Shown: in pieces, positions 2,351 to 33,279 of the stretch | Position numbering within the stretch: position 1 is the stretch's first letter | How the letters are laid out: each line of letters starts with the position of its first letter | DNA from: Sedimenticola sp. | GTDB taxonomy: Bacteria; Pseudomonadota; Gammaproteobacteria; Chromatiales; Chromatiaceae | Reading direction: 5' to 3' | Length of the DNA stretch: 59,299 bases | Assembly (NCBI GenBank): GCA_011051655.1 | Contig: DRKS01000044.1 | Span: 1 to 59,299 of the forward strand | Notes under the pieces: generated by a model | The model's input: the letters and a program-made list of their open reading frames with translations, nothing else | What the model was told of the DNA's origin: nothing | The model's database searches: none | Translations under genes and position numbers: made by a program

Positions 2351-2535
2351 GGGAACATCTGGCGACATCGCCGGTCGAAATTAAGTTGGCGGCAGGCGCC
2401 GCCAAAATCCGCAGGGCAGTCGCATCTCCCAAAAACATGAATCCGTATGCGGCAGGACCATCCATCGCCTTTCGGAATGAACCAGAAGGCGCTTGCGTGG
2501 AATCAGCCCATTCCACAAGCCGAGGAAAAAAAACG

Positions 2536-3045: not shown

Positions 3046-3868
3046 CGGGCTGGCCGCCGCTTTGCTTCTCCTGGCGGGCATCTCCGGATGCAGCGAGGAT
3101 GAAAGCAAAACACGCAAGATCAAGGAAGCCCCGGAGAACCTGACCATAGGCGGAATGAGGGTCGCCATCTGGCCTGAATATGATGACCGCAGCGTACTGG
3201 CCATATATGACGGCAGATTCGAGAACGCAACCAGTTTCCCACTCAAGACAAGCTTTCTGCTGCCCAAGGGGGCCATCATCAACGATGCCTGCAGCCTCTC
3301 CGTAGGCGGCCAGCATTTTTGCCAGTTGTATAAAACCATCAACAGGGGGGAGTACGACGAAGTGCGCCTGCTGTTGCCCTACCCCAACTTCTACCTCAGC
3401 TTCCACGCCCTGCCCATAGATGTGGAAAACAAGGAGCGCTCGTTCAGCTATAAGATAAAGGCCAGCCATGCCGTGAAAAGCATGCTGATCGACATTCAGC
3501 AACCATTGCGGTCAAATGCATTCAGCATCTCCCCCGCAGACAATGGCAACAATGCCTTGAGCCGGGCACAAAGCAAGCAATCACAAAAAAAAGGCTTCAA
3601 TCATTTCAGCTACACCCTTAAGGATATTCCCAAAGGCCAGGAAAACACATTTAAAATCAGCTATGTCAAAAGCGATCCCAACCCATCCGTCGACATCAAG
3701 TTTTCCACCATGGATGGCCCCAAAACCTGGGGGTCGCCTTATGAGACACAGAAAAACGCAAAGACGATTGTTTATATTCTGTTTGGCACAGGCGCCCTTG
3801 GCATAGCGGTTGTTATTGCCGGAGTGGTTCTCTACAGAAGAAAAAGACGGCCAGAGAAGTCGGCGTGA
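3023..3868 (+). CDS. Lipoprotein with C-terminal membrane anchor, unknown function
   Basis: 281 residues that I do not recognise as a named family. A lipobox-type signal (GISGC) comes first, then a mostly beta-rich periplasmic part with two Cys (about residues 93 and 103). A transmembrane helix near residues 249-270 follows, then a basic tail (YRRKRRPEK). The layout resembles periplasmic beta-domain proteins found beside cytochrome biogenesis genes. It overlaps the TlpA gene upstream by 23 bases and the CcmH-like gene downstream by 4 (ATGA-type), so it belongs to this operon. A role in presenting apocytochrome or copper is a guess from context only. Confidence 0.6.
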   Translation: MKSTKFFSGLAAALLLLAGISGCSEDESKTRKIKEAPENLTIGGMRVAIWPEYDDRSVLAIYDGRFENATSFPLKTSFLLPKGAIINDACSLSVGGQHFCQLYKTINRGEYDEVRLLLPYPNFYLSFHALPIDVENKERSFSYKIKASHAVKSMLIDIQQPLRSNAFSISPADNGNNALSRAQSKQSQKKGFNHFSYTLKDIPKGQENTFKISYVKSDPNPSVDIKFSTMDGPKTWGSPYETQKNAKTIVYILFGTGALGIAVVIAGVVLYRRKRRPEKSA

Positions 3869-4305
3869 AAACATTCTTTCATAAAAATCTGTTTCTTTCG
3901 GCAGCCACGCTTCTGGCTGCCTTGTGCCTTATCCTTCCATCCAGCGCATCCGCGCTGACGGTTGCCGAGGTTGTAAAAGACCTTGCCTGCCCCTGTGAGT
4001 GCCCGCTTATTTTGGAAGACTGCAACATGAGTTGCGGACTCGAGTGGAAAGAGGAGGTGGGTCAACTCATCCAGAAGGGAATGAACAAACAGCAGATCAT
4101 GGACTACTTCATCGAAAAGTATGGCGAAGAAGCCCGCCTTACCCCTATACAGAGAATAGAGGGAAAAATATATCAATATACAAGAAGCTTCGACACCATC
4201 GACTGGGTGTTGCTGTGGGCGGGAATCATCGGCTGGCTGTCTCTCATGTTCGCCGGCATCTACTTTGGCATAAAGAAGCTTTTCTCCGGCAAGCCAACCG
4301 CATAA
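3865..4305 (+). CDS. ccmH: CcmH/CcmL-like cytochrome c maturation thiol protein
   Basis: 146 residues starting with GTG: signal peptide, then a CcmH-type domain, then one transmembrane helix (about residues 112-135). The usual CcmH site is LRCxxC. Here the region reads 'LACPCECP...LEDCNMSCG', which gives five Cys in about 25 residues, more than usual. The following helix (KEEVGQLIQKGMNKQQIMDYFIEKYGEE) is characteristic of CcmH. CcmH reduces or presents apocytochrome thiols for heme ligation. No CcmA-F genes are in the window, so this is an accessory copy, perhaps dedicated to the cytochromes encoded here. Operonic with its neighbours. Confidence 0.75.
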   Translation: MKTFFHKNLFLSAATLLAALCLILPSSASALTVAEVVKDLACPCECPLILEDCNMSCGLEWKEEVGQLIQKGMNKQQIMDYFIEKYGEEARLTPIQRIEGKIYQYTRSFDTIDWVLLWAGIIGWLSLMFAGIYFGIKKLFSGKPTA

Positions 4306-4349
4306 CAAGGATTACAAACATCCGGTTAACCCCAAACCTTTAATTGAGC

Positions 4350-4877
4350 ATGAACTTGAGCAGACACTTCAACTCGGCCTGGCTTAAATATCTGGTCACT
4401 GTTTTTTTCCTCTCCATACTCATCACGGGATGTACGGAGGACAAGGGGAAGGCATTGCAGATCGGCCAGAAAGCCCCACCGTTCAGCCTTGACTTGCTGG
4501 ACGGAAAACAGACCAGTCTCGACCAATATGCCGGAAAGGGCCTGGCCATCACCTTCATGTCATCCTGGTGCCCCTGCTCCAAGGACTCCATACCCTTTTT
4601 CAAGGAGGCCTATAAAAAGTACAAAAATGACAACATACAGTTCCTGATGATTGGCATCCAGGATGCAAGAGGCAAGTTTGAGAAAATAGTCGCCAAATGG
4701 AAGGTGCCGTTTCCCGCCGGCTATGACAAGGGGGACCGCATCGCCAGGGATTACGGGGTACAGGCCCCGCCGACCACCATCTTCATAGATAAAAATGGCT
4801 CTGTAAAACGGATCTTTTATGGCAACATAAAAGACAAGGAAAAGGAATTCCCCCAATGGATAGAGGAAATTCTCTGA
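4350..4877 (+). CDS. TlpA/ResA-like thioredoxin lipoprotein
   Basis: 175 residues from the ATG at 4350, with a lipobox 'ILITGC'. The thioredoxin-fold active site reads 'SSWCPCSKDS', a CPC motif rather than CxxC in the standard spacing, so its redox chemistry may differ from the TlpA copies at 2536 and 6489. A conserved 'APPTTIFI' cis-Pro loop is present. Its stop codon overlaps the start of the CcdA-like gene (TGATG), which indicates translational coupling with the membrane electron donor that would keep it reduced. Confidence 0.8.
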   Translation: MNLSRHFNSAWLKYLVTVFFLSILITGCTEDKGKALQIGQKAPPFSLDLLDGKQTSLDQYAGKGLAITFMSSWCPCSKDSIPFFKEAYKKYKNDNIQFLMIGIQDARGKFEKIVAKWKVPFPAGYDKGDRIARDYGVQAPPTTIFIDKNGSVKRIFYGNIKDKEKEFPQWIEEIL

Positions 4878-5590
4878 TGGGATGGTTTGATGCGCTTTGG
4901 GGAGGCTTTTCCTCTTTCTTCTCTATCTGGCAGGTATGTATTCTTCAAATCAGCCCCTTCTTCCTGGCCTATATCGGCAGCCTCTACCTGATAAGCAGGG
5001 GCCAGCAATCCCAGTCTGCTTCATCCGGCCGGGAGATCTGGAAATGGGTGGCCGGCCCCTATTTTGCCTATGCAGCAGGCTTCACCATCTTCTATTCCCT
5101 GCTGGTTGCTTCCGGGCTTGGCATCAGCCGCATGCTCACCTATAACATCAGCAACCTGAGGATAATATCAGGGATGGTTATTCTACTCGTGAGCTTGTAT
5201 ATCATTTTCGCCGACCGGTTATCATTTCTGAAAAGAAGCCGGCACCCCCTTACCGCAGCCGCGCTCTCCCTGGTTATCGGTGTCACATTCGCCCTTATCT
5301 ACTCACCCTGTATTACGCCGACGCTCTCCGACATCATGGGTCTTGCGACGCATCCGCAAACGGCTGTTCAAGGATGGTTTCTGGCCCTCCATTACGGGCT
5401 TGGCTTAAGCCTCTCGCTAGGCGTGGCCGGCACGACGCTTGTCTTTCTGCTGAGCAGGAGCAGAGCGGCCATGGAAAAAACACGGTTGTTGAAAAATATT
5501 TGCGGCATCATCCTGCTCATTCCCGCTTTTCTCAATATCACAGGCCTGATGATACAATACAAGGCCTTTTTTCTCGGGCTGCTGGTATAA
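4877..5590 (+). CDS. ccdA: CcdA/DsbD-type membrane thiol electron transporter
   Basis: 237 residues from the ATG at 4877, six or more membrane helices. The conserved CcdA pair is seen as 'WQVCILQISPFFLAY' in the first helix and 'IYSPCITPTLSDIMG' in the fourth; CcdA proteins relay electrons from cytoplasmic thioredoxin through two such Cys. The first site lacks the usual SPC-LP spelling, so it is a divergent member. It is coupled by a four-base overlap to the TlpA-like gene, the expected partner. Together with the CcmH-like protein they form a compact cytochrome-c maturation thiol branch. Confidence 0.75.
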   Translation: MGWFDALWGGFSSFFSIWQVCILQISPFFLAYIGSLYLISRGQQSQSASSGREIWKWVAGPYFAYAAGFTIFYSLLVASGLGISRMLTYNISNLRIISGMVILLVSLYIIFADRLSFLKRSRHPLTAAALSLVIGVTFALIYSPCITPTLSDIMGLATHPQTAVQGWFLALHYGLGLSLSLGVAGTTLVFLLSRSRAAMEKTRLLKNICGIILLIPAFLNITGLMIQYKAFFLGLLV

Positions 5591-5668
5591 CAGCCAGGCA
5601 AAGATACAACACTGCCAACCGGCAAATCCATTTCAATTCCACGGCAAGATGGCAGGCAAACAGAAACG

Positions 5669-6502
5669 GTGAAAACCTTATTCGTTAGTTTATCCGTCTT
5701 CTTATTGTTGTGCGGCGCCACCTTTTTGGCCTCCTACATGTATCTCAGCGAGCAAAGCCCGGAGGAGATGTTCAGTAATCTATATACTGACGGAAAGTTG
5801 CTGCTTTACAAGCACGGCATGCTGGTTAAAAAGCTCTCGCCGGACGAGGTCAAAAGACTCTATACATCCACATGCACCCGGAAATGCCATGGCAAGGATG
5901 TGATCGAGGACAAACCCAGGACCGCCCCCGAATGGGCATGGATCATGGCCCGCATGAAGGCGCCTGATCGCGCAGGAATCACGGACCGGCACGCGGAAAC
6001 CATAACCCGCTATCTTCAGGAGCACTTCTTGAGCAACGTTCCGACGTTCCTGCCCGAGAACACCATGCGGTTCATCAAGAGGCACCTCTGGAAAAGTGAT
6101 TTTGGAGAAAGCGACCTCTACCTCGATTTTATTTATCTTCCCAAGGTGCACCTCAGCCTATTGCCCTATTTGGTGGCAACCAGTTCACCGCCCCAAATCT
6201 CAGGTACGGCCTTTGTCGTTTTTATAAACACCCACCAGGGAAAAATCCCCCCTTGGGATCTTGCAAAAATGGCCACGATTCAGGACGGCGACGAAGCGCC
6301 AGCCAAGGCCCTGGCTTGGGAGATCATCTATGAGGATGGACAGAACCATCACAAGCAGGGAATACTTACCTTCCCTCCCGTAGATGAGAGCAAGGCCACT
6401 TCTCTTACGATTACCATCAAACTGCCGGGACTGCGGAAAAGAACATATATGTGGAACCGGCCCATTCCAATCTTTGAGAAAAAAGACCATGCCAAACCTT
6501 AA
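5669..6502 (+). CDS. Membrane-anchored cytochrome-like protein with a CX3CH site
   Basis: 277 residues from a GTG start. An N-terminal membrane anchor (about residues 2-24) is followed by a small heme-type domain whose binding motif is 'CTRKCH' (about residues 69-74), one residue longer than CXXCH. The following Trp and 'ITRYLQEHF' match the diheme cytochrome at 1695. The C-terminal 170 residues are unrecognised and rich in beta structure. CX3CH heme sites are rare and may need special maturation, which may be why the gene sits among CcmH/TlpA/CcdA genes. It overlaps the next TlpA gene by 14 bases. Whether heme is bound is untested. Confidence 0.6.
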   Translation: MKTLFVSLSVFLLLCGATFLASYMYLSEQSPEEMFSNLYTDGKLLLYKHGMLVKKLSPDEVKRLYTSTCTRKCHGKDVIEDKPRTAPEWAWIMARMKAPDRAGITDRHAETITRYLQEHFLSNVPTFLPENTMRFIKRHLWKSDFGESDLYLDFIYLPKVHLSLLPYLVATSSPPQISGTAFVVFINTHQGKIPPWDLAKMATIQDGDEAPAKALAWEIIYEDGQNHHKQGILTFPPVDESKATSLTITIKLPGLRKRTYMWNRPIPIFEKKDHAKP

Positions 6503-10669: not shown

Positions 10670-11617
10670 TTACTCTGATAAATTATCCTTATTCCGAAGA
10701 ATGGCATTTACCAAGCCTTCTTCCACTACAAACACGTTTTCTGCCTGATTGGTCTTGGCAAAATACCCCCGGTTTGCCCTGTCCTTATCGCCTATTTCCA
10801 ATACATAGGGTAATTCATTTTTCTCTTCAAAAATTGTCAGTCTCAGTTTTGGAGCACTAAGGCCAAACGGGGCAAGGTCTGAGGGGCTTTCATCTTTAAA
10901 AACCTTTATCTCGGCATTCTTAATCTCAAAAAGGGTCTCGACAACCTTTTCCATTGAGGCCTTGCCCGCCTCTGGCTCAAGTATATGCCATCGTCCTTTG
11001 GTTTGCTCCACCACCACCTTCTCTGATCCCTTTGGCTCAATTACAAATCGCCTCATCTTCATCGGATCAAAGTCAAGAACGGTCTTGTCCCGCAGGTCGT
11101 AAGCCTCGACCCGCACCTCTTCCCTTACATCCGCATGAATACGGAAAATCTTGGTCTTTCCTTTGAGCATGGCATAGGCCACGTTATGGGTAGGGCCACT
11201 GACACCAAACTGGATGACTACATCCCTGTTGCCAAGATTAAAACCAATTTCAAGCTCAGGGTTGTCCAGGCCGAGTTCCTGCAACTTTGCCTGGTCTACA
11301 TGCTCAAAAAGCACGGCATCCTTTCTGGCCGTGATGACATTAGTGAGCAGCTTTTGTATTGCGTCGTCGTCACCCCTTGCACTCAACGGCTCTATCAGTT
11401 GCCAACCTTCCTGTGATCTCAAAACCCGTAGTTCCCGGCCCTCTCTGAGGTAGGTGATCCAAAACTCCGTAACATCATCAACGGTGAAGTGGAAAAGCCT
11501 GAGGCTTTTTTCTTTCGCAATGCGCGCCTCCTCCGCCTCTTGCTCAAAAAAGTAGAATGCACCACTGAGTATGATCAGAACGATAATCCAAAAAAGTGTC
11601 TTTTTGGAAAAATTCAC
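10670..11617 (-). CDS. DUF4340 membrane-anchored protein
   Basis: 315 residues with one N-terminal membrane helix (LFWIIVLIILSGAFYFF). Repeated alpha/beta units follow, each with 'V..FWI...EGRELRVLRSQEGWQLIEPL...DD..I..LL' wording, which is the DUF4340 pattern. These proteins regularly accompany GldG-like ABC subunits and are thought to be extracytoplasmic parts of such complexes. It overlaps the GldG-like gene by four bases (ATGA). Substrate or role unknown. Confidence 0.75.
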   Translation of the reverse strand: MNFSKKTLFWIIVLIILSGAFYFFEQEAEEARIAKEKSLRLFHFTVDDVTEFWITYLREGRELRVLRSQEGWQLIEPLSARGDDDAIQKLLTNVITARKDAVLFEHVDQAKLQELGLDNPELEIGFNLGNRDVVIQFGVSGPTHNVAYAMLKGKTKIFRIHADVREEVRVEAYDLRDKTVLDFDPMKMRRFVIEPKGSEKVVVEQTKGRWHILEPEAGKASMEKVVETLFEIKNAEIKVFKDESPSDLAPFGLSAPKLRLTIFEEKNELPYVLEIGDKDRANRGYFAKTNQAENVFVVEEGLVNAILRNKDNLSE

Positions 11618-13182
11618 TCAACCCTCCTCTTCTTGATGATCACAGCAATGCCAAACATCATCACCAGGGATGGCACAATAATCACGGAAAGCCAGAAAAC
11701 CAGCTTGCCTTGGGTATTGGTGAGCATAAGCGGTGTCAGGCCGGGTTCTTTTTTCCGTATGGAGATCAAAACATTCTCCTCAGCCAACCAGTTAAGCATG
11801 TTCAGGAAGAAATCCTTGTTGCCTGCCAGCTTTAAATGCGTATTGCCTGCAAAATCGGAATCACCGACTACAATGATTTTACCCCACTTCTTAAGGCTCG
11901 CTGAATTGTCCTCTGGTTTTTCCTCGCTTACCGTAACCTCAACTGCGGCAACCGCCGCTACGGTGAGGGGGCCCCGTTGGTGCTTGTCCGGGTCAAATTT
12001 GAGATTTTCATCAGTAAGCTCGCCGGTAATGGCCCAACTATTGGCGCTGGTCATGGCAAGGTTATAGCTGCCTTTTTCGGGTTCTTCCTTTATCTTTACC
12101 GATTGGGCGGCGGGATAGAAAGTGGCTACTGTGAAATCACTGGTAAGAATATGGTTTTTATTATATTCAACGACAACCGGTGTAAGATAGTTAGCGCCAT
12201 AGACTTGGCTCAGCTTGTCAATGATCAGGTTGTTCCCCACCTCAAACCCATAACCGGCCAAATAACTTGAAAGCACCTTGCCAGAACCCGGGTCAAGCAT
12301 AAACAGGACCCGTCCTCCGCCAAAGAGATATGAGGTGATCTTATCGAACTCGCTTGGCAATAGATCACTTTCTGGACCATTCAGCACAACTACCGCTGCA
12401 TCCTCAGGTATTTTTTCAACACTCATCAGCAGCAGCTCTTTTACCTTGTAGTTTTCTTTTTCAATCGCCTCCCTGGCCAAGGCATATCCATTATTTTTCA
12501 TGCTGTTGATGTCTTTCTCGCCATGGCCTTTAACGAAGTAGATGGTTTTAACATCCTCGCTCAGCAGCTTGATCAGGGCATTTGTTATCCTGGATTCCGA
12601 TTCGGTGCCCACAACCTCCTGCTTACCACCATATGAAAATACCGTAGTTCTATAAGAGGTGATGCCGTACTTTACGGCTTCCGCCGGACTCTTGTCCGGG
12701 TCTACAAACCGGAAGTTGAATTTTGGTGAATAGTAGGCATACTCCTTCAACAAATCGTGCATCGCCTGCCTGGTTCTCTCATCAGTCCGATAAAAGGCCA
12801 CGGCCTCCACATCATTCTTCAGTGATTTTAATATCTTGACCGTCTGTGAGGAGAGGGTATACCTTTTGTTCTCCGTCAGGTCGATACGCACCTTATAGCG
12901 CACCGACATAATGCTGATCATCCCCACAACCACTATAAAAACCGCGATCATGATTGCCGTATTGGCCGCATATTTGGTAGATCGCTTCGCTATGAGGTCC
13001 CTGATATCCGAGAAGCCAATATAGAGATAAAGCATGAGAGAGAGTAAGCCAATCCATAGGATGGTGATTGGCAAAGTACTCATCTCTCCGGTTATTGCAT
13101 AGATAATGCCCCCGATTGCTATCAGAACAGGAGCCAAAAGACCTATGAAGCGATTAAGCCCCTTACCTTTCATCATCGCCAC
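11614..13182 (-). CDS. GldG-like ABC-associated extracytoplasmic protein
   Basis: 522 residues. Two N-terminal membrane helices, one near residues 85-107, precede a large periplasmic domain with 'DLTENKRYTLSSQTVKILKSL', the hallmark of GldG/DUF4350-like proteins (ABC_transp_aux family). A glutamine-amidotransferase-like fold follows ('YFVKGHGEKDINS', 'VVLNGPESDLLPSE', 'GGRVLFMLDPG'). A final membrane helix and basic tail (IIKKRRVE) end the chain. Overlaps of 10 and 4 bases with its neighbours show one transcript with the ATPase and permease. Despite the name, gliding is not implied; such systems are widespread in non-gliding bacteria. Confidence 0.8.
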   Translation of the reverse strand: MAMMKGKGLNRFIGLLAPVLIAIGGIIYAITGEMSTLPITILWIGLLSLMLYLYIGFSDIRDLIAKRSTKYAANTAIMIAVFIVVVGMISIMSVRYKVRIDLTENKRYTLSSQTVKILKSLKNDVEAVAFYRTDERTRQAMHDLLKEYAYYSPKFNFRFVDPDKSPAEAVKYGITSYRTTVFSYGGKQEVVGTESESRITNALIKLLSEDVKTIYFVKGHGEKDINSMKNNGYALAREAIEKENYKVKELLLMSVEKIPEDAAVVVLNGPESDLLPSEFDKITSYLFGGGRVLFMLDPGSGKVLSSYLAGYGFEVGNNLIIDKLSQVYGANYLTPVVVEYNKNHILTSDFTVATFYPAAQSVKIKEEPEKGSYNLAMTSANSWAITGELTDENLKFDPDKHQRGPLTVAAVAAVEVTVSEEKPEDNSASLKKWGKIIVVGDSDFAGNTHLKLAGNKDFFLNMLNWLAEENVLISIRKKEPGLTPLMLTNTQGKLVFWLSVIIVPSLVMMFGIAVIIKKRRVE

Positions 13183-13955
13183 CTCTTTGATTCCAGGACT
13201 CTTAGGGTAAGGAACAGGAAAAGCACAATGAAACAGAAGTAATAAATTATGTCTTCCGTATCCAAGACTCCTTTTGCCATGCTCGCAATATGCTCATTAA
13301 TCGAAAGGTAGCTGAGTATCCGGCCAAAACCGCCGGACACAAAGGAAACTGAATAACTCATCATATAAAACAAGAAAAGCAGGCCAAATGAGATGGAAGC
13401 GGCAATAATCTGGTTTTCCGTCAGAGAGGAGGTGAAAATGCCGAGCGATATGAAAGCGGCCCCCATCAGAATGAGTCCCAGATAACCCGTGAGAATCGGC
13501 ATCACTTCCGGCTCCCCCAGCACGATCAGGAGGATTGGGAAAGTAGCCGTCAGCAGGATCATGGTCAGAAAAACAACAAAGCAGGCGAGAAATTTGCTGA
13601 TGACTACATCAATGTCATTCACCGGATAGGTTAGCAGCAGTTCAATGGTGCCTGTTTTCTTCTCTTCAGAAAAAAGGCGCATAGTCAATAATGGCGTCAT
13701 CAGCAGCATAATAATGCTTATGTTTCCAAACAGCGGCCTTACAACGGTCTCATTAATATTCAGAAGCTGGTACTGTTTGGCCAACATCGGATTGGACTGG
13801 GCCTGAAAGCTGACTACTGAGAAAGTCGCCAGCAGATTGTAAAAAAAGTAGCCCGTTATCAACAAGAACATCGTGATCACCACATAGGCAATCAGAGAGT
13901 TGAAATAACCTTTCAGCTCTTTCTGAAAGATAATTCCGATACTCCTGAAATTCAT
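13173..13955 (-). CDS. ABC-2 type permease (GldF/NosY-like)
   Basis: 260 residues, six membrane helices, beginning 'IFQKELKGYFNSLIAYVV', the amphipathic elbow typical of ABC-2 permeases including GldF and NosY. 'LLTMRLFSEEKKTGTIELLLTYPV' marks the first coupling loop. Translationally coupled to the ATPase gene (4-base overlap) and the GldG-like gene (10-base overlap). Because the window also has a NosZ homologue, a NosY role in CuZ assembly was considered, but the GldG/DUF4340 partners favour the Gld-type family. Confidence 0.8.
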   Translation of the reverse strand: MNFRSIGIIFQKELKGYFNSLIAYVVITMFLLITGYFFYNLLATFSVVSFQAQSNPMLAKQYQLLNINETVVRPLFGNISIIMLLMTPLLTMRLFSEEKKTGTIELLLTYPVNDIDVVISKFLACFVVFLTMILLTATFPILLIVLGEPEVMPILTGYLGLILMGAAFISLGIFTSSLTENQIIAASISFGLLFLFYMMSYSVSFVSGGFGRILSYLSINEHIASMAKGVLDTEDIIYYFCFIVLFLFLTLRVLESKRWR

Positions 13956-14887
13956 ATGTCCTCCTTGGTAATCAAGTTGATAAAGATCTCTTCCAAGCTT
14001 TTCTCAATAGGACGCATCTCGATAAGATCCCAACTATTTTGAGCAATCAGTGACTGAAGATTTTTTCTAACCAGCTTCTCATCATCGAAATCGACAATAA
14101 AGCCACAGGGATCTCCAGCAGCGACTTGTTCTCTTTCAGTGGCCTTGACACCTTCCACTCGCGTGATGGCCTTCTCAATGTCAGCCTCCGGCCCATCAAT
14201 GCGCAATAACAGTTTTGACGATTTCTTGGCAGTAAGGTTCTCCGGCTTGTCCACCGCCACCAACTTCCCCTTATTGATGATGATCACTCTGCCGCATAAA
14301 AGGCTGACTTCGGGCAGAATATGCGTACTCAGTATCACGGTGCGCTTCCCGGCCAGATCCCTGATGATTCTTCTTATCTCCTGGATCTGTTTTGGATCAA
14401 GCCCGACCGTAGGCTCGTCCAGGATCAAAACGTCCGGGTCATTGACCACAGCCTGGGCAAGTCCAACTCTCTGCCTGTACCCTCTTGAGCATGCGCTTAT
14501 CATTTTCGATGCAACATCATGGAGGCCGAAGTCATCAACTACCTGGTCAACACTCCTTTTTACATCCCTGGCCGGAACACCCTTCGCTCCCGCGGCAAAG
14601 GCCAGATAGTCGGTGACCTTCATATCTTCATAGAGAGGCACCCGCTCAGGCAGATAGCCAATCCTTTTTCGGACATTTAGCGAATCTTCGAAGCAGTCAT
14701 AGCCGGCAACCATGGCTTTCCCTTTCGTAGCCGGAAAAAAACAGGTCAAAATCCGCATCATAGTTGTTTTCCCGGCCCCATTCGGGCCAAGAAAACCTAC
14801 TATTTCGCCTTTTCCCACGGAGAAACTGATGTCATCGAGGGCCCGATGCTGGCCATAGTCTTTGGTTAAATGTTCAACTTCTATCAT
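13952..14887 (-). CDS. ABC transporter ATPase (GldA/NosF-like)
   Basis: 311 residues. Walker A 'GPNGAGKTT', signature region 'CSRGYRQRVGLAQAVV', Walker B 'VLILDEPTVGLDP' and H-loop 'ILSTHIL' are all intact. The signature reads YRQRV rather than LSGGQ, common in ABC-2 exporters. A C-terminal regulatory domain of about 90 residues follows. First gene of a five-gene minus-strand operon (ATPase, permease, GldG-like, DUF4340, binding lipoprotein). The start is about 550 bases from the next cytochrome gene and no FNR box was found before it. Confidence 0.85.
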   Translation of the reverse strand: MIEVEHLTKDYGQHRALDDISFSVGKGEIVGFLGPNGAGKTTMMRILTCFFPATKGKAMVAGYDCFEDSLNVRKRIGYLPERVPLYEDMKVTDYLAFAAGAKGVPARDVKRSVDQVVDDFGLHDVASKMISACSRGYRQRVGLAQAVVNDPDVLILDEPTVGLDPKQIQEIRRIIRDLAGKRTVILSTHILPEVSLLCGRVIIINKGKLVAVDKPENLTAKKSSKLLLRIDGPEADIEKAITRVEGVKATEREQVAAGDPCGFIVDFDDEKLVRKNLQSLIAQNSWDLIEMRPIEKSLEEIFINLITKEDI

Positions 14888-15441: not shown

Positions 15442-16395
15442 TTAATATCCAGCACTAAGTTTCTTAGAGACCTCCTCCGGCCTTTTCCTGAGCCCGCCTT
15501 CCACATATCCGCCGCCTTCCAGGCCGGCGCCGCGCCCAGGCAGGCTGGCTTCCACCATCTCCTGCTCTTCCTGGAACTCTTCACTCTGCAGATAGTTGAG
15601 TGCGTTCACATCTCCAGGAATCGGCTTGAAGGTGGATTTTGGATTCAGGTAATCATCCACGGACTTTGGCGGCCCTACATCCTGGTTGGCCCTTATCCAG
15701 GCAACCACATTCCAGATGTCCTGATCCAGCAGGATGTTACCCCAGGAAGGCATGGAGGGTGAAAGCCCTACCGCTTCGCCACCGCCTTTGATAACCGTAA
15801 ACAGCTGGAGATTGGATTTTTTCTGCATGTAGGAGCCTGCTGTCAAGGTCCTCGGTTTCGGATCGAGCATAGCCGCGTTGGGACCATCACCCTGCAGCGT
15901 CCAACCATGGCAGGCAACGCAATAGAAATAGTACCATTGCTTGCCCGCATTCGGATCGGCGCCATCAACAAGGGTTGACTTGAAGCTGGGCGACCAGTTG
16001 TTAACCCACTGGTTGTAGATCGCCTCTCCTTGTGCCGCATTTTCAACGCGATCCCACAATTCGGTCTTACCGGTATCTCCGCCCAGCGATCCACCATAAC
16101 CGCTATCGCCTTGCTTTTTAACATCCTTGGAGGAACGCTTGCCCACACCTGTCAGATAATCAAATGGCTCGATACCATAGGTGCTGCCTGCTTTGCCAAC
16201 CGCCATGGCGTCGGCTTCCGCCCCAAAGGACTCAACGGCCTTCTTCAGTTCCTCATCACTTTTAACGGGGCACTCGACCTTTTCGCCCGTCATGGTCGTG
16301 CATCTTTTCTCCGCGGCAAGAGCAACCGTGCTCCCCGCTAAAACCATCAGGCTGGTTGCTGCGACCAAGCATAGCCTACGTTTCTCACTCTTCAT
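15442..16395 (-). CDS. Periplasmic monoheme cytochrome c, FNR-box controlled
   Basis: 317 residues. A Sec signal peptide (ends ALA-AEK) leads to about 120 residues without known motif containing two Cys (KRC, VEC). A class I cytochrome c domain follows: CVACH at about residue 155, a possible Met ligand in 'GLSPSMPSWGN' near 218, then a C-terminal low-complexity Glu/Gly/Arg tail. Its heme domain resembles the cytochromes at 18522 and 28011 ('RTLT...LF.VIKGGG.AVGLS..MP.WG..L.DQDIW'). An FNR/DNR-type box lies about 150 bases upstream. Probably an electron carrier to a terminal reductase in this region. Confidence 0.8.
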   Translation of the reverse strand: MKSEKRRLCLVAATSLMVLAGSTVALAAEKRCTTMTGEKVECPVKSDEELKKAVESFGAEADAMAVGKAGSTYGIEPFDYLTGVGKRSSKDVKKQGDSGYGGSLGGDTGKTELWDRVENAAQGEAIYNQWVNNWSPSFKSTLVDGADPNAGKQWYYFYCVACHGWTLQGDGPNAAMLDPKPRTLTAGSYMQKKSNLQLFTVIKGGGEAVGLSPSMPSWGNILLDQDIWNVVAWIRANQDVGPPKSVDDYLNPKSTFKPIPGDVNALNYLQSEEFQEEQEMVEASLPGRGAGLEGGGYVEGGLRKRPEEVSKKLSAGY

Positions 16396-19086: not shown

Positions 19087-19617
19087 TTATTTTTCAGTCG
19101 CCCCATATGACTGTATCTCTTTATAGGAACCAGGCGCAGATTTGCCTTTCAATGCCATCTCTATCGGCCGGTCCTCCACGGCTGTCTCAACAAGGCGGAT
19201 CATTGCCTGATCGTCACCCAATAGTCTCTTGATGTCTTTCAGGCGCCAGTCACCCTCCCAGTTGCCAACCAGGCCATTCCATACCTGGGTAATCGCAACC
19301 AACTCCGCATCAGTGAATTGCTCAACCTGCTTGGTGTTTAGATTGGCCATGTCCACATACTTTTTCATCGTATGCGTAACCACCGCAAAGGGTGGACCGC
19401 AGCGGGAACAATATTGGAGTATTTTTTCCGCCTGGTGGCAGGCGGTACATCTGGTATAGGCAAGAGTGGTAGCCTCATCCGGGGTATAGGCGAGATAGCC
19501 TCTTCGCTTGGCCTCATCCAGTATCCAACTGCCAGCAGGATTGGGAATAACCAGCAAAGCTGTTATTGCGACAACCAAAAAAACAGGGAAACCAACTACC
19601 CACAAGCGCTTTTTCAT
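19087..19617 (-). CDS. Membrane-anchored monoheme cytochrome c
   Basis: 176 residues from the ATG at 19617. One N-terminal anchor helix (WVVGFPVFLVVAITALLVI), then the heme motif CTACH (about residue 56) and a second CSRCG where a histidine would be needed for a second heme, so one heme only or a degenerate diheme. The region after the motif ('THTMKKYVDMANLNTKQVEQFTDAELVAITQVW') resembles the heme domains at 1695 and 5669. Third from the end of the NosZ-like operon; a possible quinol-side or periplasmic donor. Confidence 0.75.
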   Translation of the reverse strand: MKKRLWVVGFPVFLVVAITALLVIPNPAGSWILDEAKRRGYLAYTPDEATTLAYTRCTACHQAEKILQYCSRCGPPFAVVTHTMKKYVDMANLNTKQVEQFTDAELVAITQVWNGLVGNWEGDWRLKDIKRLLGDDQAMIRLVETAVEDRPIEMALKGKSAPGSYKEIQSYGATEK

Positions 19618-19775
19618 GGCCCCCGGCTCTAGTACATTGGAATATTCTGAAGTTTGCATGGCGCCAGAACCAAGCTTCCTCATCCCGAATTACTCAGACA
19701 AGAACCAGTCTCAATGGTTTCAGGGTGGTGAAAATTTTTCTATACAAGGAACAAAGCATCATTGAAAGAATGGCA

Positions 19776-20765
19776 TTACTTTAACCACAGGTTTGATACT
19801 GCATTCCCGTCTACTTTAAACAACGCATTCTCTACAATATCGGCAAACCAGATGTCCCCTGCCCTATCCACCGCTATGTCTCTCGGCTTGCTCTCCCCCA
19901 ATCCAACCTTAACCTCAATGAACTCTTTGGTTTTTGGATTGAACGCGCCTATTTTCCTAATGCCCCTGATGGAGAAGAATATTCTCCCCTCCGCGCCCAC
20001 GGTCAGGCTATCCATGGAGCTACCGCCCGGCAAGGGGAAGGTTTCAAATTTTTCCGCCACCGGATCAAACATTACCACTGACCGGCCTTTGTTGCCCCCA
20101 AACCATAGATAGCCAAGGCGGTCCATGGCGATATCCATGGCAGCCTCAAAAAGGTTGGGCATAGGAAACTCCCGCACAGAGCCGTCCCTGGTATCCAGCC
20201 TCCCCAGTTTATTGCCCACGTTCTCAATAAACCATATCCGGCCCTTGAAGTCAGCAACCAGGCCGACCGGCCGGGAATCCGGCGTGGGAATCAAATACTC
20301 CTTGAATTCCTCTTTTTGAGGGTCGAACATGCCGATCTTATTACCATAAAATTGGGTAAACCAAATCTTGCCATCGGCATCACTGGTAATCCTGAAGGGC
20401 GAGCTCTCAATGGTTGGAATATCGTATTCCTTGAAGGACTGGGCAGCCGGATCAAATACAGCGAGTTGGTTTGCATCCTGCTCGAGAAACCAGACCTTCC
20501 CGTCGTTATCCAGCGTCAAATCCGAGGGGAAGCTTCTATAAGTTGGTATCTCGAATTCCGAGTAGGTCTCCTTGGCGGGTTGGAACCGCGCGATTTTATT
20601 GGTATTCGCCTCTATGATCCAGACATCGCCTTCCTTGTCGACTTCAATCCTGGCTGGCAGGGCGTAATCCGTCGGCACTTTATACGAAATAAAGGGTTCC
20701 GCTCCCGAGGCCGGCAACGACAATAAAAGGAACAGAACCAACCCAAGGGCAATCCGTCTTTTCAT
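19776..20765 (-). CDS. Virginiamycin-B-lyase-like beta-propeller, periplasmic
   Basis: 329 residues with a Sec signal (LVLFLLLSLPASG) and about seven repeats of some 42 residues with the core 'IP....P..I..D..G.IWF.....NKIG.FDP...EF.EY', which is the Vgb/SMP-30 propeller pattern. The His and Glu catalytic residues expected for streptogramin lyase were not seen in the repeats, so a binding or scaffold role is more likely than antibiotic cleavage. It overlaps the similar gene upstream by four bases. Both sit in the NosZ-like operon, whose main protein is also a propeller. Confidence 0.8.
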   Translation of the reverse strand: MKRRIALGLVLFLLLSLPASGAEPFISYKVPTDYALPARIEVDKEGDVWIIEANTNKIARFQPAKETYSEFEIPTYRSFPSDLTLDNDGKVWFLEQDANQLAVFDPAAQSFKEYDIPTIESSPFRITSDADGKIWFTQFYGNKIGMFDPQKEEFKEYLIPTPDSRPVGLVADFKGRIWFIENVGNKLGRLDTRDGSVREFPMPNLFEAAMDIAMDRLGYLWFGGNKGRSVVMFDPVAEKFETFPLPGGSSMDSLTVGAEGRIFFSIRGIRKIGAFNPKTKEFIEVKVGLGESKPRDIAVDRAGDIWFADIVENALFKVDGNAVSNLWLK

Positions 20766-22024
20766 TCGGCCTCGCCTTCACGCTGTCCCTTTAGGTGCTT
20801 CAAGCGCCCTATGGCCAAAACAGCAATGACGGCCAATATCAAAAAATATAAAAGCCATCTTGCCGCACTCCCAGATGAAGCTGCCTGGGGAGTGGAGTCT
20901 CTGGACGATGCATTCTGCGCAATGGAATCTTCCTTGCCGGTCTGCGCCAGGGCATCGGCAATGGAAAGCACTCCCAGTCTCTTTGCTTCCGTGTTACCTT
21001 CGGTAAACCAAAGCATAGAGCGTTTGTGATCTATGACCATATCCCCCGGCAGACTGCTGAAGGTGGGAATCTCATACTCCTTAAAAAGCGCGCTTTCCGG
21101 AAGAAAAACCCCTACTTTGTTCCCCCTGTATTCCAGGAACCATATATTGCCATTGGCGTCAGCCGCTATGGCATTGGGCGAACTCCGCCTGGTGGGAATA
21201 AGGGCTTCATCAAACCTTTCCAGGTCCGGATAGAATGCACCTATCCGGTTTGTATTCAGCTGAACGAACCATACCTTCCCGTTCCTGTCGATGGCAATTT
21301 TTCCAGGATTCGCAAAAGGGGTGGGGATATCATATTCATAAAATAACTCTTTCCCCGGATCAAACTTCCCGATCTTGTTTGCGTTGGGCTCGACAAACCA
21401 AATAAACCCCTCGGCATCGACAGCCAGGCTCCTGGGAAATCCGTTAGGCGTTGGAATGGGATACCCTTTAAATGAAAAATTTTCGGGGTCCACGCGATAG
21501 AGCCGGTTTTTGTTGGATGCCACAAACCAGATGACACCGGCATCATCTACAAGCAGCTCTTCCGGGACAGCATCTATGGAGAGATTGAACTTGGTAAAAA
21601 AGCCATCGGAAGGCGTATATTTACCGAGCACATATTGCTCTTGCGCATTCTGGGCCCACCTGCGTACGGTGAACCAGATTTCATCATTCTGTCCCAAGAC
21701 AAAGGTTGCAAATCCAACCTCGCCCCAGGAAGCGGGAAGAGGAAAAGAGGTAAATTCCTTCTTTTCCGGATCGAGCCTGGTGAGCTTTTTACCAATTTTT
21801 TCCGTAAACCAGATATACCCGGATTGATCTATGGCAATGGTTTGGGCCGAGCTGAGCCCCTCCGGCAAAGCCACTTCCTTGATTAGCGACTCCGATGCAA
21901 ACAGCACCCCCGCATGGGCAATTATGCCCACGACCAAAACAGCCCAAAAGCAAAAAACGAGAAGTCGGTTAAGGGGTTTCGTCCTGGGTAAGACCTTTAT
22001 GCTTCCAAGGCTTGGGATCACCAT
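20762..22024 (-). CDS. Larger Vgb-like beta-propeller with two membrane anchors
   Basis: 420 residues from the ATG at 22024 (432 from 22060). An N-terminal helix (LLVFCFWAVLVVGIIAHAG) leads to seven 'IWF' propeller repeats similar to the product at 19776. A Ser/Gln-rich linker and a second helix (WLLYFLILAVIAVLAI) with a basic end follow, so the propeller is held in the periplasm by both ends. It overlaps the cytochrome b subunit gene by seven bases. No lyase catalytic residues identified. May be a dock between the cytochrome b/c module and soluble partners; this is inference. Confidence 0.75.
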   Translation of the reverse strand: MVIPSLGSIKVLPRTKPLNRLLVFCFWAVLVVGIIAHAGVLFASESLIKEVALPEGLSSAQTIAIDQSGYIWFTEKIGKKLTRLDPEKKEFTSFPLPASWGEVGFATFVLGQNDEIWFTVRRWAQNAQEQYVLGKYTPSDGFFTKFNLSIDAVPEELLVDDAGVIWFVASNKNRLYRVDPENFSFKGYPIPTPNGFPRSLAVDAEGFIWFVEPNANKIGKFDPGKELFYEYDIPTPFANPGKIAIDRNGKVWFVQLNTNRIGAFYPDLERFDEALIPTRRSSPNAIAADANGNIWFLEYRGNKVGVFLPESALFKEYEIPTFSSLPGDMVIDHKRSMLWFTEGNTEAKRLGVLSIADALAQTGKEDSIAQNASSRDSTPQAASSGSAARWLLYFLILAVIAVLAIGRLKHLKGQREGEAE

Positions 22025-22698
22025 GTCATCGTGGGTTCGTAAAAATGTCTGAGTTGCCAATTCGCATCCTTGTAGGAAGCGCCTGTACGATCCTGGTCGC
22101 CGATGCGGTACTTACCAACCTGGATCTGCTGGGCACGCTCATGCCGGTAAAAGTCGGCCATATTAGGCGGCGGAAGGGCTTGCCTTACTCCCATCATCGG
22201 ATTGTGGCAGGAAGTGCATCCCATTGTCTTGGCATGCCGCCCCGAAACCACCACGCTAGATATAATGCCGGCCCAGACCGCCCATATGATCAACGCCAAC
22301 AACGCCTTCTTACCGAGGCCAATCTGAACGCCAACTGCATTTTTTCTCTTAAAAATAAGCGGAACCAAGCAGAGAAAAGCAATCACGCCAAGTGGTAACC
22401 AGAATGTAAAAAGCGGGATCCACTTCTTATTCTCACCTACCAAATACCAAAAAGGCCTAAAGATAAAAAACAGATACCACTCGGGCGCCGGAATATTCAT
22501 ACCATCATCGGGCAATGGCGGCATGGCGGGATCTGTTGGCACTTGGTAATAATAAGCCAGCACAAAGGGTATCGACCACAGCAGGATTACCGCTATAGAA
22601 GCCCTGATCGCGTGCTTGGGCCAAAAGCTGTAAAACGACTGGGGGTAAGGCGGATCGTATTTCGGATCGTGAATGACTTCTCTTTCTTTCGTGGCCAT
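22018..22698 (-). CDS. Cytochrome b C-terminal subunit (subunit IV-like) with heme c
   Basis: 226 residues: three membrane helices of the subunit IV type with the quinol-site 'PAPEWYLFF', then a fourth helix and a C-terminal CTSCH heme-c motif (about residue 161). The tail 'W.LRHFYEP.MTW' matches the end of the one-chain cytochrome b/c at 7866 ('WMMRHWFNPQIVW'). Heme c fused to the subunit IV end is known from bc complexes of several bacterial groups. It follows the b6-like gene by 21 bases. No Rieske gene is in the window. Confidence 0.85.
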   Translation of the reverse strand: MATKEREVIHDPKYDPPYPQSFYSFWPKHAIRASIAVILLWSIPFVLAYYYQVPTDPAMPPLPDDGMNIPAPEWYLFFIFRPFWYLVGENKKWIPLFTFWLPLGVIAFLCLVPLIFKRKNAVGVQIGLGKKALLALIIWAVWAGIISSVVVSGRHAKTMGCTSCHNPMMGVRQALPPPNMADFYRHERAQQIQVGKYRIGDQDRTGASYKDANWQLRHFYEPTMTW

Positions 22699-22719
22699 GA
22701 CAGTCCCAATAAGTCTGCG

Positions 22720-23325
22720 TTATAGCGGCTCGGAGATGCCGTGCTTGCGAACCATCTTGAAGTGAAAATATAAGAATCCAGCCAGAAGCAGCGGAATCAC
22801 TAATATATGAGTGTAATAGAGTAGCTCTAAGGAGAAGGTGGAAAGAAAGAAATTCTTTAGCGGTTCGCCGATAACAAACCAAGTGTCAATATAGTCCATC
22901 CAGATCGCAAACGACCAGTATGCCCGCCAGTCCCACGGCAGCATAATCCCCGTAACCAACAGCAAGAACACCGCCAGCAGTTGAAAAACCCCACTGATCC
23001 AAGTAAATTGGCGCGGGCTTTTAAATGCCTTGTAGAAAAAAACAATAATCATATGGGAGAAAACGGTCGCCATCAGCAGCGTGGAGCACCACCGATGAAG
23101 GTTTCTGATCAACCACCCCAAGGTTACATCGTTACTCATGGCCTCGATGCTATACAGGGCCTTATCCGGTTCCGGCGTATAGAAAAACAGCATAAAAACA
23201 CCGGTGAGCACCTGAAGGATAATGAGTGAAAGCGAAAGCCCCCCGAAACAGTGAAAGAAAGTTACGTGGGCTGGTATCGGCTTGGCCCTCTTTTTCTGCC
23301 ACCAATCTGCTAACATTGACGCCAT
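22720..23325 (-). CDS. Cytochrome b N-terminal subunit (b6-like)
   Basis: 201 residues, four membrane helices. Two His pairs ligate two hemes: 'LIRNLHRWCSTLLMATVFSH' in helix B and 'THILVIPLLLAGFLYFH' in helix D. 'LPWDWRAYW' between them is the conserved quinol-pocket loop. One base overlaps the lipoprotein gene, so NosZ-like, lipoprotein, b6-like and subunit IV-like genes read as one unit apart from a terminator-like hairpin after nosZ. A likely quinol dehydrogenase feeding the NosZ-like protein through the cytochromes at 18522 and 19087. Confidence 0.85.
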   Translation of the reverse strand: MASMLADWWQKKRAKPIPAHVTFFHCFGGLSLSLIILQVLTGVFMLFFYTPEPDKALYSIEAMSNDVTLGWLIRNLHRWCSTLLMATVFSHMIIVFFYKAFKSPRQFTWISGVFQLLAVFLLLVTGIMLPWDWRAYWSFAIWMDYIDTWFVIGEPLKNFFLSTFSLELLYYTHILVIPLLLAGFLYFHFKMVRKHGISEPL

Positions 23326-23864
23326 TATTTCATGCTCCTCAGTTCAGCAGCCTCGATTTTTTTAGCCTCGGCCATATCCATACCATAGGTTTCACCCGTA
23401 AAATCGACCTTCCAGGTATTGCTGGCTGTATCTATGGTGAGGGGTATTTTCTCGTTTATGGTATAGCCATCATTGAAAATAGACGGCATCTTGTAACTTA
23501 TATCAACGATAGCCTGGGTGCCTTTGATTTCGGCTTTCCCAACAGTCACCATAAATCCCGGCGGGTATTTCCTGATTACCTCCAGGAACTGGTCTTCTAT
23601 CAAGTGAGACCGCTCTGCGCTAATCATCTTGAAGGCGGCGCGCGCAGGACTGCCTCCACCTTTTTGTTTTGCCTCTGTGATGTATCCGTAGAACCTTTTT
23701 AAAACGACTTCAGGGCCCTCTTCAGGGAGAATCGACGCTGTTGCTCCTTGTTGATCGCAGCCAGCCAGCAGGGTGAGGAGGAAAAAGAGAACGTAAAACA
23801 GAACACCTGCGCAAATGCCGCCGTCAGAGCGTCCCCGTAAATACCATAGAGACAAGACACTCAC
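23325..23864 (-). CDS. Lipoprotein, NTF2/DUF4878-like, in the NosZ-like operon
   Basis: 179 residues: lipobox 'TLLAGC', then 'PEVVLKRFYGYITEAKQK' and a run of beta-strands that suggests a DUF4878/NTF2-like fold. No Cys or His cluster for metals. It is the gene directly upstream of the split cytochrome b, mirroring the protein at 7210 beside the other cytochrome b/c gene. I do not know its function. Confidence 0.65.
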   Translation of the reverse strand: MSVLSLWYLRGRSDGGICAGVLFYVLFFLLTLLAGCDQQGATASILPEEGPEVVLKRFYGYITEAKQKGGGSPARAAFKMISAERSHLIEDQFLEVIRKYPPGFMVTVGKAEIKGTQAIVDISYKMPSIFNDGYTINEKIPLTIDTASNTWKVDFTGETYGMDMAEAKKIEAAELRSMK

Positions 23865-23885
23865 CTCTTCTTACGTTACAAAAAC

Positions 23886-23950
23886 CATCCCCCCCAGAAG
23901 GGGGGGATGAGGCTGTTGCATATGTTGCCCCTTTTTCTCCAAAGGGGCAA
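23886..23950 (-). terminator. Two hairpins after nosZ-like gene
   Basis: Read on the minus strand, TTGCCCCTTT/AAAGGGGCAA (23925-23950, 10 bp, perfect) comes 13 bases after the nosZ-like stop. Then CATCCCCCCC/GGGGGGGATG (23886-23909) is followed by GGTTTTTG. The second is a good Rho-independent terminator. Since co-directional genes follow at once, it may act as a partial terminator giving more nosZ-like transcript than downstream message. Confidence 0.65.
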
Positions 23951-23962
23951 GCAGGGTGACCC

Positions 23963-25738
23963 TTACAGGCTCTGAACGCGCTCTGCTATGGTCAACTCAC
24001 CCTCTTCCAGGACACCTTCGAGCTGCTGTGCCTTGGCGTACTCGCCAACATCGAAGTTGGAGTCACCCTTGGCCGGGTCATCCACATAGAATGTCCCCCT
24101 CATTTCCAAGTGCAAGGGGCCGCAGAAGTGCTGGCAGAAGATCTCAAACTCGCCGGCGATATCCGCAGTAAACTCCGATACGGCACTCACTCCGCGTGGA
24201 GAACTCAGGTTGGTGCGGAAACCATAGGGCCCGTAGATGGTAAATCCCATGGTGACATCAGGGTTCTTGGTGATACCCGCAGCCCGGTCGATATTGGTCA
24301 CGATGAGCCTTACCTTATCACCCTTGTTCACCCTGATCTGCCGCGGAATATAGCCGTAGCTGAAGGACTTGACCTGAATCTCCTTCACGCCATTGACCAT
24401 TTTGATACCCGGCCGCGCCGTGGATTTCGGAATCAGGTAGTGATGCGATTTCATCTTATGCGCAGGATTGAGCTGCTTCATCGGGCCGGTAATCAGGCCA
24501 TCTTTCGTCGCATTACCCAGATTCCAGCGCTTGATCTGGTAGGACCAGATATTCTTGGCGTTGTGCGGCTCGCCATCCACCGGCATGATCTTGAGGGTCT
24601 TGCCATAGGTCGGGCTGTCCTCCCGGGCGTCCCACATTTCGAAGTTAACCGGATAGACGATGCCGGTCGGGCTGAACAGGCCGGTCGAGAACTTGTTGAG
24701 TGCGAAAACATAGGAGTTGTCATTACTGATGGAGATGTGACCTGTTCTGTAGTGGGTCGGGATCTCGTCTACAACCACCTGCTTATGGATGTCGATCTTG
24801 ACGTTGGAATCCGCCACAAAGCAGCTCTCATAGGCATACTTGGAGGTCAGGCCTTCGGTGCTGTCCTTGCCCGGCTCATAGACACCACCATCCTTGTCAT
24901 ACACATCCATTACGGAGTGCAGGGGGCCGGCGCAGGTCGGTATTACCTTGTGCACCGCCAGCTTGTCGACATCGATGAAGGTCATGGTGGCGGACAGCTT
25001 GTCACTGACCAGCGCCAGGGTACCCTCAGGGATGACATCCACGCCATGCGGGTTCTTGCCGACCGGGATTTCCTTGATGAACTTGAAGGGGTTGGCGGAG
25101 AACACACCCACAGTGGAGTGGTAGTAGTTGCCCGCGAACACGTATTTCCCTTTTCTGCCAGCGTCAAGGTAATCCGGAGCACTGGGCGCGGGGCCCCAAT
25201 CGATGATCTGGGTCTTACCGGTCTTGATCTCCATTTTCATCATCTTGCCGGAGTATTCACCGGTACCGAAAAGGTGCTTGCCGTCGGTGCTCAGGGCGAT
25301 ATGGTGGAGACCGAAAGGAAAGGGGATAGAAATCAACCGCTCCAGGAAACCGGTCTGCAGGTTGATCTCGCCAATGGTGTTGGCGCCCTTGTCGTTGACA
25401 TAGAGATACTTGCCATCCGGGGTGCCGTTTTTGTTGCCATGGTTGGTACCACCATAGGACACTTCGTGCAAGTCCACACCCACGTCAATATGACGGTAGG
25501 TCTTGAAGCTGGGGATACCGATCACGGCCACCCGGCCGTCCAAACCACCGGCGTTATACATGATCATCGGATCATGCAGCGGGGAGTCTTGCGGCTCCGC
25601 GGCTCCATACTGCCAGCTCGGAATCACCTTGTCCCCCGCCTTCTCATCAGCGATGGCCGTTGATACCAATCCCCCCGACGCAAGAATAACCCCCGAGAGA
25701 AGGCTCATCATTGGAAAGTTGCGCTTTATGCGATGCAT
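23963..25738 (-). CDS. nosZ: Divergent nitrous oxide reductase (NosZ-like)
   Basis: 591 residues: Sec-type signal peptide (no twin-Arg, as in clade II NosZ), seven-bladed propeller, then a cupredoxin domain from about residue 460. CuA motif 'FCQHFCGPLHLEM' is present (C535, C539, H543, M546). The residue before it that is His in other NosZ ('THGF') reads TMGF here (M497). Of the seven CuZ histidines, six positions are recognisable (H91, H145, H231, H274, H334, H392), but the usual HH pair reads H91-E92. H100, in a five-residue insertion, might compensate. So it belongs to the NosZ superfamily, but N2O reduction is not certain. FNR/DNR box about 300 bases upstream; no NosR, NosD or NosL nearby. 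Confidence 0.8.
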   Translation of the reverse strand: MHRIKRNFPMMSLLSGVILASGGLVSTAIADEKAGDKVIPSWQYGAAEPQDSPLHDPMIMYNAGGLDGRVAVIGIPSFKTYRHIDVGVDLHEVSYGGTNHGNKNGTPDGKYLYVNDKGANTIGEINLQTGFLERLISIPFPFGLHHIALSTDGKHLFGTGEYSGKMMKMEIKTGKTQIIDWGPAPSAPDYLDAGRKGKYVFAGNYYHSTVGVFSANPFKFIKEIPVGKNPHGVDVIPEGTLALVSDKLSATMTFIDVDKLAVHKVIPTCAGPLHSVMDVYDKDGGVYEPGKDSTEGLTSKYAYESCFVADSNVKIDIHKQVVVDEIPTHYRTGHISISNDNSYVFALNKFSTGLFSPTGIVYPVNFEMWDAREDSPTYGKTLKIMPVDGEPHNAKNIWSYQIKRWNLGNATKDGLITGPMKQLNPAHKMKSHHYLIPKSTARPGIKMVNGVKEIQVKSFSYGYIPRQIRVNKGDKVRLIVTNIDRAAGITKNPDVTMGFTIYGPYGFRTNLSSPRGVSAVSEFTADIAGEFEIFCQHFCGPLHLEMRGTFYVDDPAKGDSNFDVGEYAKAQQLEGVLEEGELTIAERVQSL

Positions 25739-33278: not shown

Positions 33279-33279
33279 C

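Follow-up and report, generated by a model that had tools for sequence, protein, structure and literature searches.

The window, i.e., the whole stretch of 59,299 nucleotides of Sedimenticola sp. DNA that was analysed, carried on its minus strand an open reading frame of 591 amino acids with an ATG start (L-nosZ; 23963..25738), for which an earlier note on this DNA had given the correct coordinates. The encoded protein matched NCBIfam family NF052460 ("clade III lactonase-type nitrous-oxide reductase") with 750.1 bits over model positions 1-480/480, the cut-off being 700 bits. The models of clade I (TIGR04244; 113.3 bits) and clade II (TIGR04246; 153.7 bits) stayed below their cut-offs of 625 bits. 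Pfam families YNCE, nos_propeller, and Lactonase were found above cut-off in the N-terminal part, and Cupredoxin_1 reached 23.2 bits at the C-terminus, slightly short of its cut-off of 27. The solved structures nearest in sequence were NosZ chains, and a twin-arginine motif was not seen at the N-terminus. A plus-strand frame of 517 amino acids (24110-25663) overlaps L-nosZ and was taken to be its shadow. Judged by sequence, the open reading frame is to be assigned to L-NosZ of clade III, an enzyme type that is recent but already named. The founding paper of clade III is said to be that of He et al. 2025 in Nature (646:152), as cited by others. An excerpt of PMC13274427 names two N2O reducers of clade III, Sporomusa acidovorans and Desulfitobacterium nosdiversum, and cites N2O reductase activity of other clade III members. 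The earlier note had considered a new type of N2O reductase with different metal sites; the sites do differ, but the type had its name already in NF052460.

The genes around L-nosZ were compared with 21 loci that come from named records, one genome supplying two of the loci; 12 of the 21 have at least 9.5 kb of downstream flank. Five further regions from other genomes were compared as well. The next gene after L-nosZ (23325..23864, minus strand) codes, by its sequence, for a small lipoprotein-like protein, which had no Pfam or NCBIfam match and of which homologues occurred in six of the 21 loci, five of the 12 long-flank loci, and all five further regions. It is followed on the same strand by the genes for a b6-type cytochrome b (22720..23325; Pfam Cytochrome_B) and a membrane subunit with one CxxCH haem motif (22018..22698), each retrieved in 6/21 loci (5/12 with a long flank); the membrane subunit gave no Pfam or NCBIfam match, and we infer that it is subunit IV/cytochrome c-like. 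Two Vgb-like beta-propellers (20762..22060 and 19776..20765, minus strand; both Pfam Vgb_lyase) were each present in eight of the 21 loci. In addition, a small, apparently membrane-anchored protein with one CxxCH motif (19087..19683, minus strand), without Pfam or NCBIfam match, was present in seven. A cytochrome c (15442..16395, minus strand; Pfam Cytochrom_C) accompanied L-nosZ in 17 of the 21 loci, including all 12 long-flank ones, and in all five further regions; it is proposed to be the direct electron donor to CuA.

Further along the minus strand, four genes (10670..14887) encode an ABC transporter, consisting of an ATPase (13952-14887; 7/12 long-flank loci and 4/5 further regions), a permease (13173-13955; 7/12), a GldG-like auxiliary protein (11614-13182; 8/12), and a DUF4340 protein (10670-11617; 7/12), these genes lying on either strand in the 12 long-flank loci. 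The ATPase shares 34% identity with a NosF, and the permease shares 26% with the permease neighbouring that NosF; the Pfam families agree as well, a likeness that might be found among any members of those superfamilies. From sequence, the transporter is proposed as a putative stand-in for NosDFY. On the plus strand, a block of genes (2386..6502) codes for two TlpA/thioredoxin-like proteins, a CcdA/DsbD-like membrane protein, and two conserved unknowns, as judged from Pfam matches (AhpC-TSA/Redoxin above and DsbD_TM below cut-off). This block, which was kept in four to six of the 21 loci and also in one further region (L056), is proposed to serve in thiol/copper delivery.

Other genes of the window were recorded as well. 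A formylglycine-generating-enzyme-like protein is encoded inside the cassette region (16668-17606), and a second cytochrome b protein of 384 amino acids (7866-9020) carries its own CxxCH motif in one chain. A cytochrome cluster spans 28011-34776 and comprises a two-haem cytochrome fused to an ethylbenzene-dehydrogenase-like haem domain (28011), cytochromes c (29617 and 30392), a di-haem cytochrome (34048), and a 622-amino-acid protein (31213) weakly like subunit I of cytochrome bd oxidase; the gene of the latter occurred together with L-nosZ in 6/21 loci and also in region L057. The stretch 35599-41533 contains a CuA-type COX2 (37354) and a COX1-like subunit (37907), which scored above the Pfam cut-offs and far below the NCBIfam oxidase cut-offs. 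The genes around this pair presumably correspond to ctaA, ctaB, and SCO, and their order is one that we take to resemble sNOR-type nitric oxide reductase clusters. Next to it, a protein of 531 amino acids (41597-43192) combines a cytochrome b-type domain with a ferredoxin and an HdrA2-like C-terminal sequence. The G+C content of the cassette region (10670-25738) was 49.8% versus 55.3% for the window; this low value would be in keeping with acquisition from elsewhere, but the L-nosZ gene, with 55.3%, matches the window.

Metal-site residues of L-NosZ

Ligand positions were compared in a profile-profile alignment of 17 L-NosZ and six canonical NosZ sequences (E 9e-45; 443 columns, both domains) and in a joint alignment, in which 28 L-NosZ rows of more than 500 amino acids (25 of them distinct) were combined with the six canonical rows. 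The canonical set consisted of three plasmid-borne proteins annotated as TAT-dependent and three proteins from genomes that also carry L-NosZ. The 28 rows, which include one relative under the NF052460 cut-off (L035; 690 bits), represent genomes outside Bacillota and Nitrospirota, the home of characterised or described relatives. Three relatives of at most 500 amino acids (L019, L021, and L024) stood outside the table and agreed where present, L024 having HE, and L019 and L021 having TMG. Ligand roles were taken from an excerpt of PMC8301774 and from the titles of PDB mutants (H129A, H130A, H178A, H326A, H382A, H433A, H494A, and H583 variants). Chance, sequencing error, and misalignment as sources of the deviating residues E92 and M497 are ruled out by the profile-profile alignment and by the presence of both residues in all 28 L-NosZ rows. 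Similarly, an assembly or frameshift artefact is ruled out, since identical residues occur in independent genomes.

In the profile alignment, the CuZ ligands in canonical order correspond to H91, E92, H145, H231, H274, H334, and H392 of L-NosZ, so that six of the seven histidines are kept and the second is a glutamate. The pair H91-E92 (25463..25468, minus strand; codons CAC GAA) takes the place of the first His-His pair in all 28 L-NosZ rows, and all six canonical rows have His at the position of E92, which confirms the His-Glu pair reported in the earlier note. The other six histidines, together with the second-sphere residues K349 and E390, were invariant in the 28 L-NosZ and the six canonical rows; H231, H274, H334, H392, K349, and E390 lie within 24563..25048 (minus strand), and their codons were read out. 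An excerpt of PMC8301774 attributes a stabilising effect on CuZ to Lys and Glu of the second sphere, and one of PMC10936187 describes the CuZ sites of clade II homologues as more variable. H145, the third CuZ histidine, is followed directly by an extra histidine, H146 (H145-H146; 25301..25306, minus strand), which the earlier note had missed and which was present in 28/28 L-NosZ rows and in none of the six canonical rows, where G, R, or A stands.

The five-residue insertion after H91-E92 was found as the earlier note had described it, with 17 residues from H91 to D108 in L-NosZ versus 12 from H137 to D149 in canonical NosZ, and it is common to the whole L-NosZ group. Conversely, L-NosZ lacks a stretch of about 40 residues ahead of the HH motif in the joint alignment with canonical NosZ. 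The histidine within the insertion, H100 (25439..25441, minus strand), was confirmed at the codon level and stands in a column with A in 22, E in three, and L, S, and H in one row each, and it can hardly be a ligand, since it is private to the window protein. On the evidence of these alignments, H146 is a better candidate than H100 for the seventh CuZ ligand. A full-length AlphaFold model from 17 sequences had a pLDDT of 42.5 and was not used.

At the CuA site, M497 (24248..24250, minus strand) stands, according to the alignments, at the position of the upstream His (H583 of Pseudomonas stutzeri). Codon and alignment both confirmed this replacement, with Met in 28/28 L-NosZ rows and His in 6/6 canonical rows; the alignment with other NosZ sequences called for in the earlier note thus showed E92 in the column of the second CuZ His and M497 in that of the upstream CuA His. 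The CuA loop (24101..24136, minus strand) reads C535-Q-H537-F-C539-GPL-H543-LE-M546, and its CxxxCxxxHxxM motif (C535, C539, H543, and M546) was verified codon by codon. These Cys, Cys, His, and Met residues were kept in all 27 L-NosZ rows that reach the columns, so that of a CuA site made up of the upstream His, two Cys, His, and Met, all but the upstream His are present. The residues of the CuA loop were numbered by an assumed canonical scheme. H537 stands at the position of Trp620. It was rejected as an invariant stand-in for the CuA His, as the column has T in 2/27 rows and the NF052460 family model is neutral to Tyr (a gain of 0.3 bit, with losses of 0.8 to 1.7 bits for Glu, Trp, and Thr). 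The title of Zhang et al. 2021 reportedly proposes the CuA His as a gate for electron entry. A haloarchaeal NosZ with a His at the Trp620 position is mentioned in an excerpt of PMC8301774.

The cupredoxin domain, when modelled alone (pLDDT 75.1), matched CuA domains and NosZ best (Z 12.4 to 13.7), which, together with the Pfam matches to Lactonase, YNCE, and nos_propeller, bears out the propeller-cupredoxin layout recognised in the earlier note. The same model had a Z of 10.7 with one apo NosZ and of 10.4 to 11.9 with nitrosocyanin and other cupredoxins, and it therefore speaks for the fold and not for the site.

To gauge the reach of these changes within the family, residues of the window protein were exchanged one at a time and scored with the NF052460 model, which yields preferences of the model rather than a count of sequences. 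Exchanges at the invariant histidines (H91E, H91A, H145A, H146A, H146G, and H543E) lost 4.0 to 5.0 bits, with 5.0 bits for H146G and 4.5 bits each for H145A and H146A. Replacing E92 cost 3.0 to 3.1 bits for H, 3.3 for A, 2.4 for Q, and 2.2 for D. By these scores, E92 and H145-H146 look common to all of clade III. M497H gained 0.9 bit, and the exchange of M497 for A, L, Q, Y, and D cost 1.8, 1.9, 1.4, 1.4, and 2.2 bits, respectively (the other 13 residues were not scored). Hence, column 497 looks split between His and Met within clade III, because His scores above Met and five other residues below. All 28 sampled rows were on the Met side, even the divergent ones (58 to 63% identity), and the window protein may thus represent a clade III branch with a Met-type CuA. 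As the family model favours His at this position, CuA may be normal in the characterised enzymes, and their activity may not carry over.

Compared with clade III as represented by NF052460, the window protein thus shares the full-length match, the lactonase-type propeller with cupredoxin, and the residues E92 and H145-H146 favoured by the model, and differs from it in Met497, where the model slightly prefers His, and in its private H100. With NosZ of clade I (TAT) and clade II (Sec), such as those of P. stutzeri and P. denitrificans, L-NosZ has in common the two-domain layout, six of seven CuZ histidines, the second-sphere Lys and Glu, and the Cys2-His-Met loop of CuA, the identity of the cupredoxin domain being 21 to 29% (NosZ among the matches listed); it differs in the Glu for the second CuZ His, the extra His146, and the Met for the upstream CuA His. 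The same two positions are altered in laboratory mutants of P. stutzeri NosZ (H130A and H583A/N/E/Y/F/D/W; PDB), and the natural changes to Glu and Met were absent among the PDB matches listed (two sets of 50). No mention of these substitutions was found in excerpts of the open-licence NosZ literature, and they may still be published elsewhere.

Maturation genes, distribution, and host

The canonical nos system and the genome of the host, which is 95.8% complete, differ in that the latter has neither NosD nor NosL above cut-off. Indeed, NosL gave no match in this genome, and the best NosD match had 21.8 bits versus a cut-off of 300. Among 24 L-NosZ genomes, NosD exceeded the cut-off in two (G491 and G496) and NosL in three (G491, G642, and G677); weak NosD-like matches below cut-off occurred in 12, that of the host included. 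A second NosZ was sought in 17 genomes by means of the L-NosZ model alone (E 1e-30 or better), and canonical NosZ appeared in two of them, which are the two NosD-bearing ones. These canonical-type proteins of G491 and G496 (L038, L039, and L040) display the HH motif and the CuA His, indicating that both types of NosZ can share one genome. The evidence for absence of NosD and NosL is strong for the L-NosZ group and amounts to no proof per genome, many of these being metagenome-assembled genomes (MAGs) with mostly unstated completeness. A NosZ-like clade with a lactonase-type propeller and a cupredoxin domain, the layout of L-NosZ, was described in 2024 from Nitrospirota aquifer MAGs; in the excerpt of PMC11033732, its function is left open, and it is distinct from clade II and includes S. 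acidovorans and a Burkholderiales species. For one of these MAGs, nzgw271, which has a lactonase-type nosZ-like gene, nosDFLYX genes are reported in the same excerpt, in contrast with the host genome, where NosD and NosL are lacking; maturation free of NosDFY is therefore not general for the clade.

L-NosZ is rare. It was found in none of the 91 genomes of other host relatives, in three of 398 genomes of the phylum set (host included), and in 6/297 (one at 690 bits, under the cut-off) and 1/80 genomes of two other sets, each including the genome on which the set was centred. This patchy spread suggests transfer or loss. Viral contigs contained no relatives of L-NosZ by either of two alignments. 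Among plasmids, 166 records matched, all with less than 60% identity; of the 30 plasmid matches listed (22.9 to 25.9% identity), 20 were annotated as TAT-dependent NosZ and the others differently or not at all. In a phylogenetic tree, the 28 L-NosZ rows were fully apart from the six canonical ones, and the window protein fell within a group of 12 rows (support 100/99) together with proteins from Chromatiales, Mariprofundus, and Gallionellales genomes.

Searched with the L-NosZ model, the host genome showed no NosZ-like protein other than the window protein. Other contigs of this genome encode cd1-type nitrite reductase-like proteins (L045, 1060-2619; L044; and L046), making N2O from the host's own denitrification a plausible substrate.

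Proposed mechanism, alternative readings, and significance

Judged from its sequence and that of its neighbours, the window protein highly probably serves as N2O reductase in a system of clade III (L-NosZ). In such a system, electrons from quinol would pass via the bc-type cytochrome (22720 and 22018) to the cytochrome c (15442) and on to CuA in the cupredoxin domain. From there, they would reach the copper-sulfide cluster in the propeller, where N2O would be reduced to N2 and water. The cluster would most likely rest on seven histidines as usual, H146 standing in for the second His that the first motif has lost, and E92 would then be a second-sphere residue or an alternative ligand. Met497 would occupy the place at CuA where canonical NosZ has the proposed gating His583, so that electrons would enter under a different gate or ungated. 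The ABC transporter and thiol-redox proteins of the cassette, and not NosD, NosF, NosY, and NosL, would likely carry out maturation. That a Met-type branch of clade III, represented in Pseudomonadota and at least one other lineage, combines the change from His to Met at CuA with an HE plus HH cluster and an ABC maturation system of its own in place of NosDFYL, and thereby represents a second, independently assembled metal centre, is put forward tentatively, as possible rather than probable.

Several other readings bear on these residues. A variant of the clade III reading, the probability of which overlaps with it, would have E92 itself ligate copper, in a His6Glu cluster possibly of another nuclearity, with H146 in a structural role. 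The exact position of E92 on the column of the second His, its invariance in the 28 rows, and the penalties of the family model on H, A, Q, and D (3.0, 3.3, 2.4, and 2.2 bits) point in this direction; however, H146 is equally invariant, is absent from the six canonical rows, and would restore the set of seven histidines, so that ligation by E92 seems rather unlikely. The earlier note had raised the question of whether H100 reaches CuZ, where it would replace the missing His; in favour of this is its location in the insertion, eight residues past E92. The idea was not borne out and is excluded as a family mechanism, a His being found in one of 28 rows and the family model favouring Ala (a gain of 1.2 bits); even for the window protein, there is next to no likelihood left for it, and H100 was rejected as a CuZ ligand.

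Compatible with the clade III reading, and with a chance that comes close to even without reaching it, is the view that the window protein is an ordinary member, all changes including Met497 being typical of clade III and already contained in its founding paper. The apparently family-wide E92 and H145-H146 and the Met in every sampled row agree with this view, but the preference of the family model for His over Met in column 497 (by 0.9 bit, with A, L, Q, Y, and D 1.4 to 2.2 bits below Met) does not. That the lineage of the window protein has a NosZ-derived enzyme acting on a different substrate, an alternative named in the earlier note, or a redox relay that does not reduce N2O, is improbable. 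The two altered ligand positions, the large cytochrome cluster with a bd-like protein linked in 6/21 loci, and the additional canonical NosZ in 2/17 genomes would be in keeping with such a change of function. Against it stand the invariance of six CuZ histidines and of the Lys-Glu pair in 28/28 rows and of Cys-Cys-His-Met at CuA in 27/27, the curation of NF052460 as N2O reductase, the 15 of 17 genomes without other NosZ by the L-NosZ model at E 1e-30, the respiratory nature of the cassette, and the cd1 nitrite reductase-like gene in the host.

With the clade III N2O reductase as the preferred reading, the enzyme type itself is known, and the residues of interest are Met497 and H146. To our knowledge, clades I and II share one copper-sulfide cluster, one set of seven histidines, and one maturation machine. 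A branch with Glu and Met at two of the ligand positions, mostly without NosD or NosL above cut-off, would be a direct test of the ligands and assembly proteins that N2O reduction requires. The finding also matters for the counting of N2O sinks, in that the single NosZ found in this host is of a clade that surveys of clades I and II set aside, clade III reads being excluded, for instance, according to an excerpt of PMC12569097.
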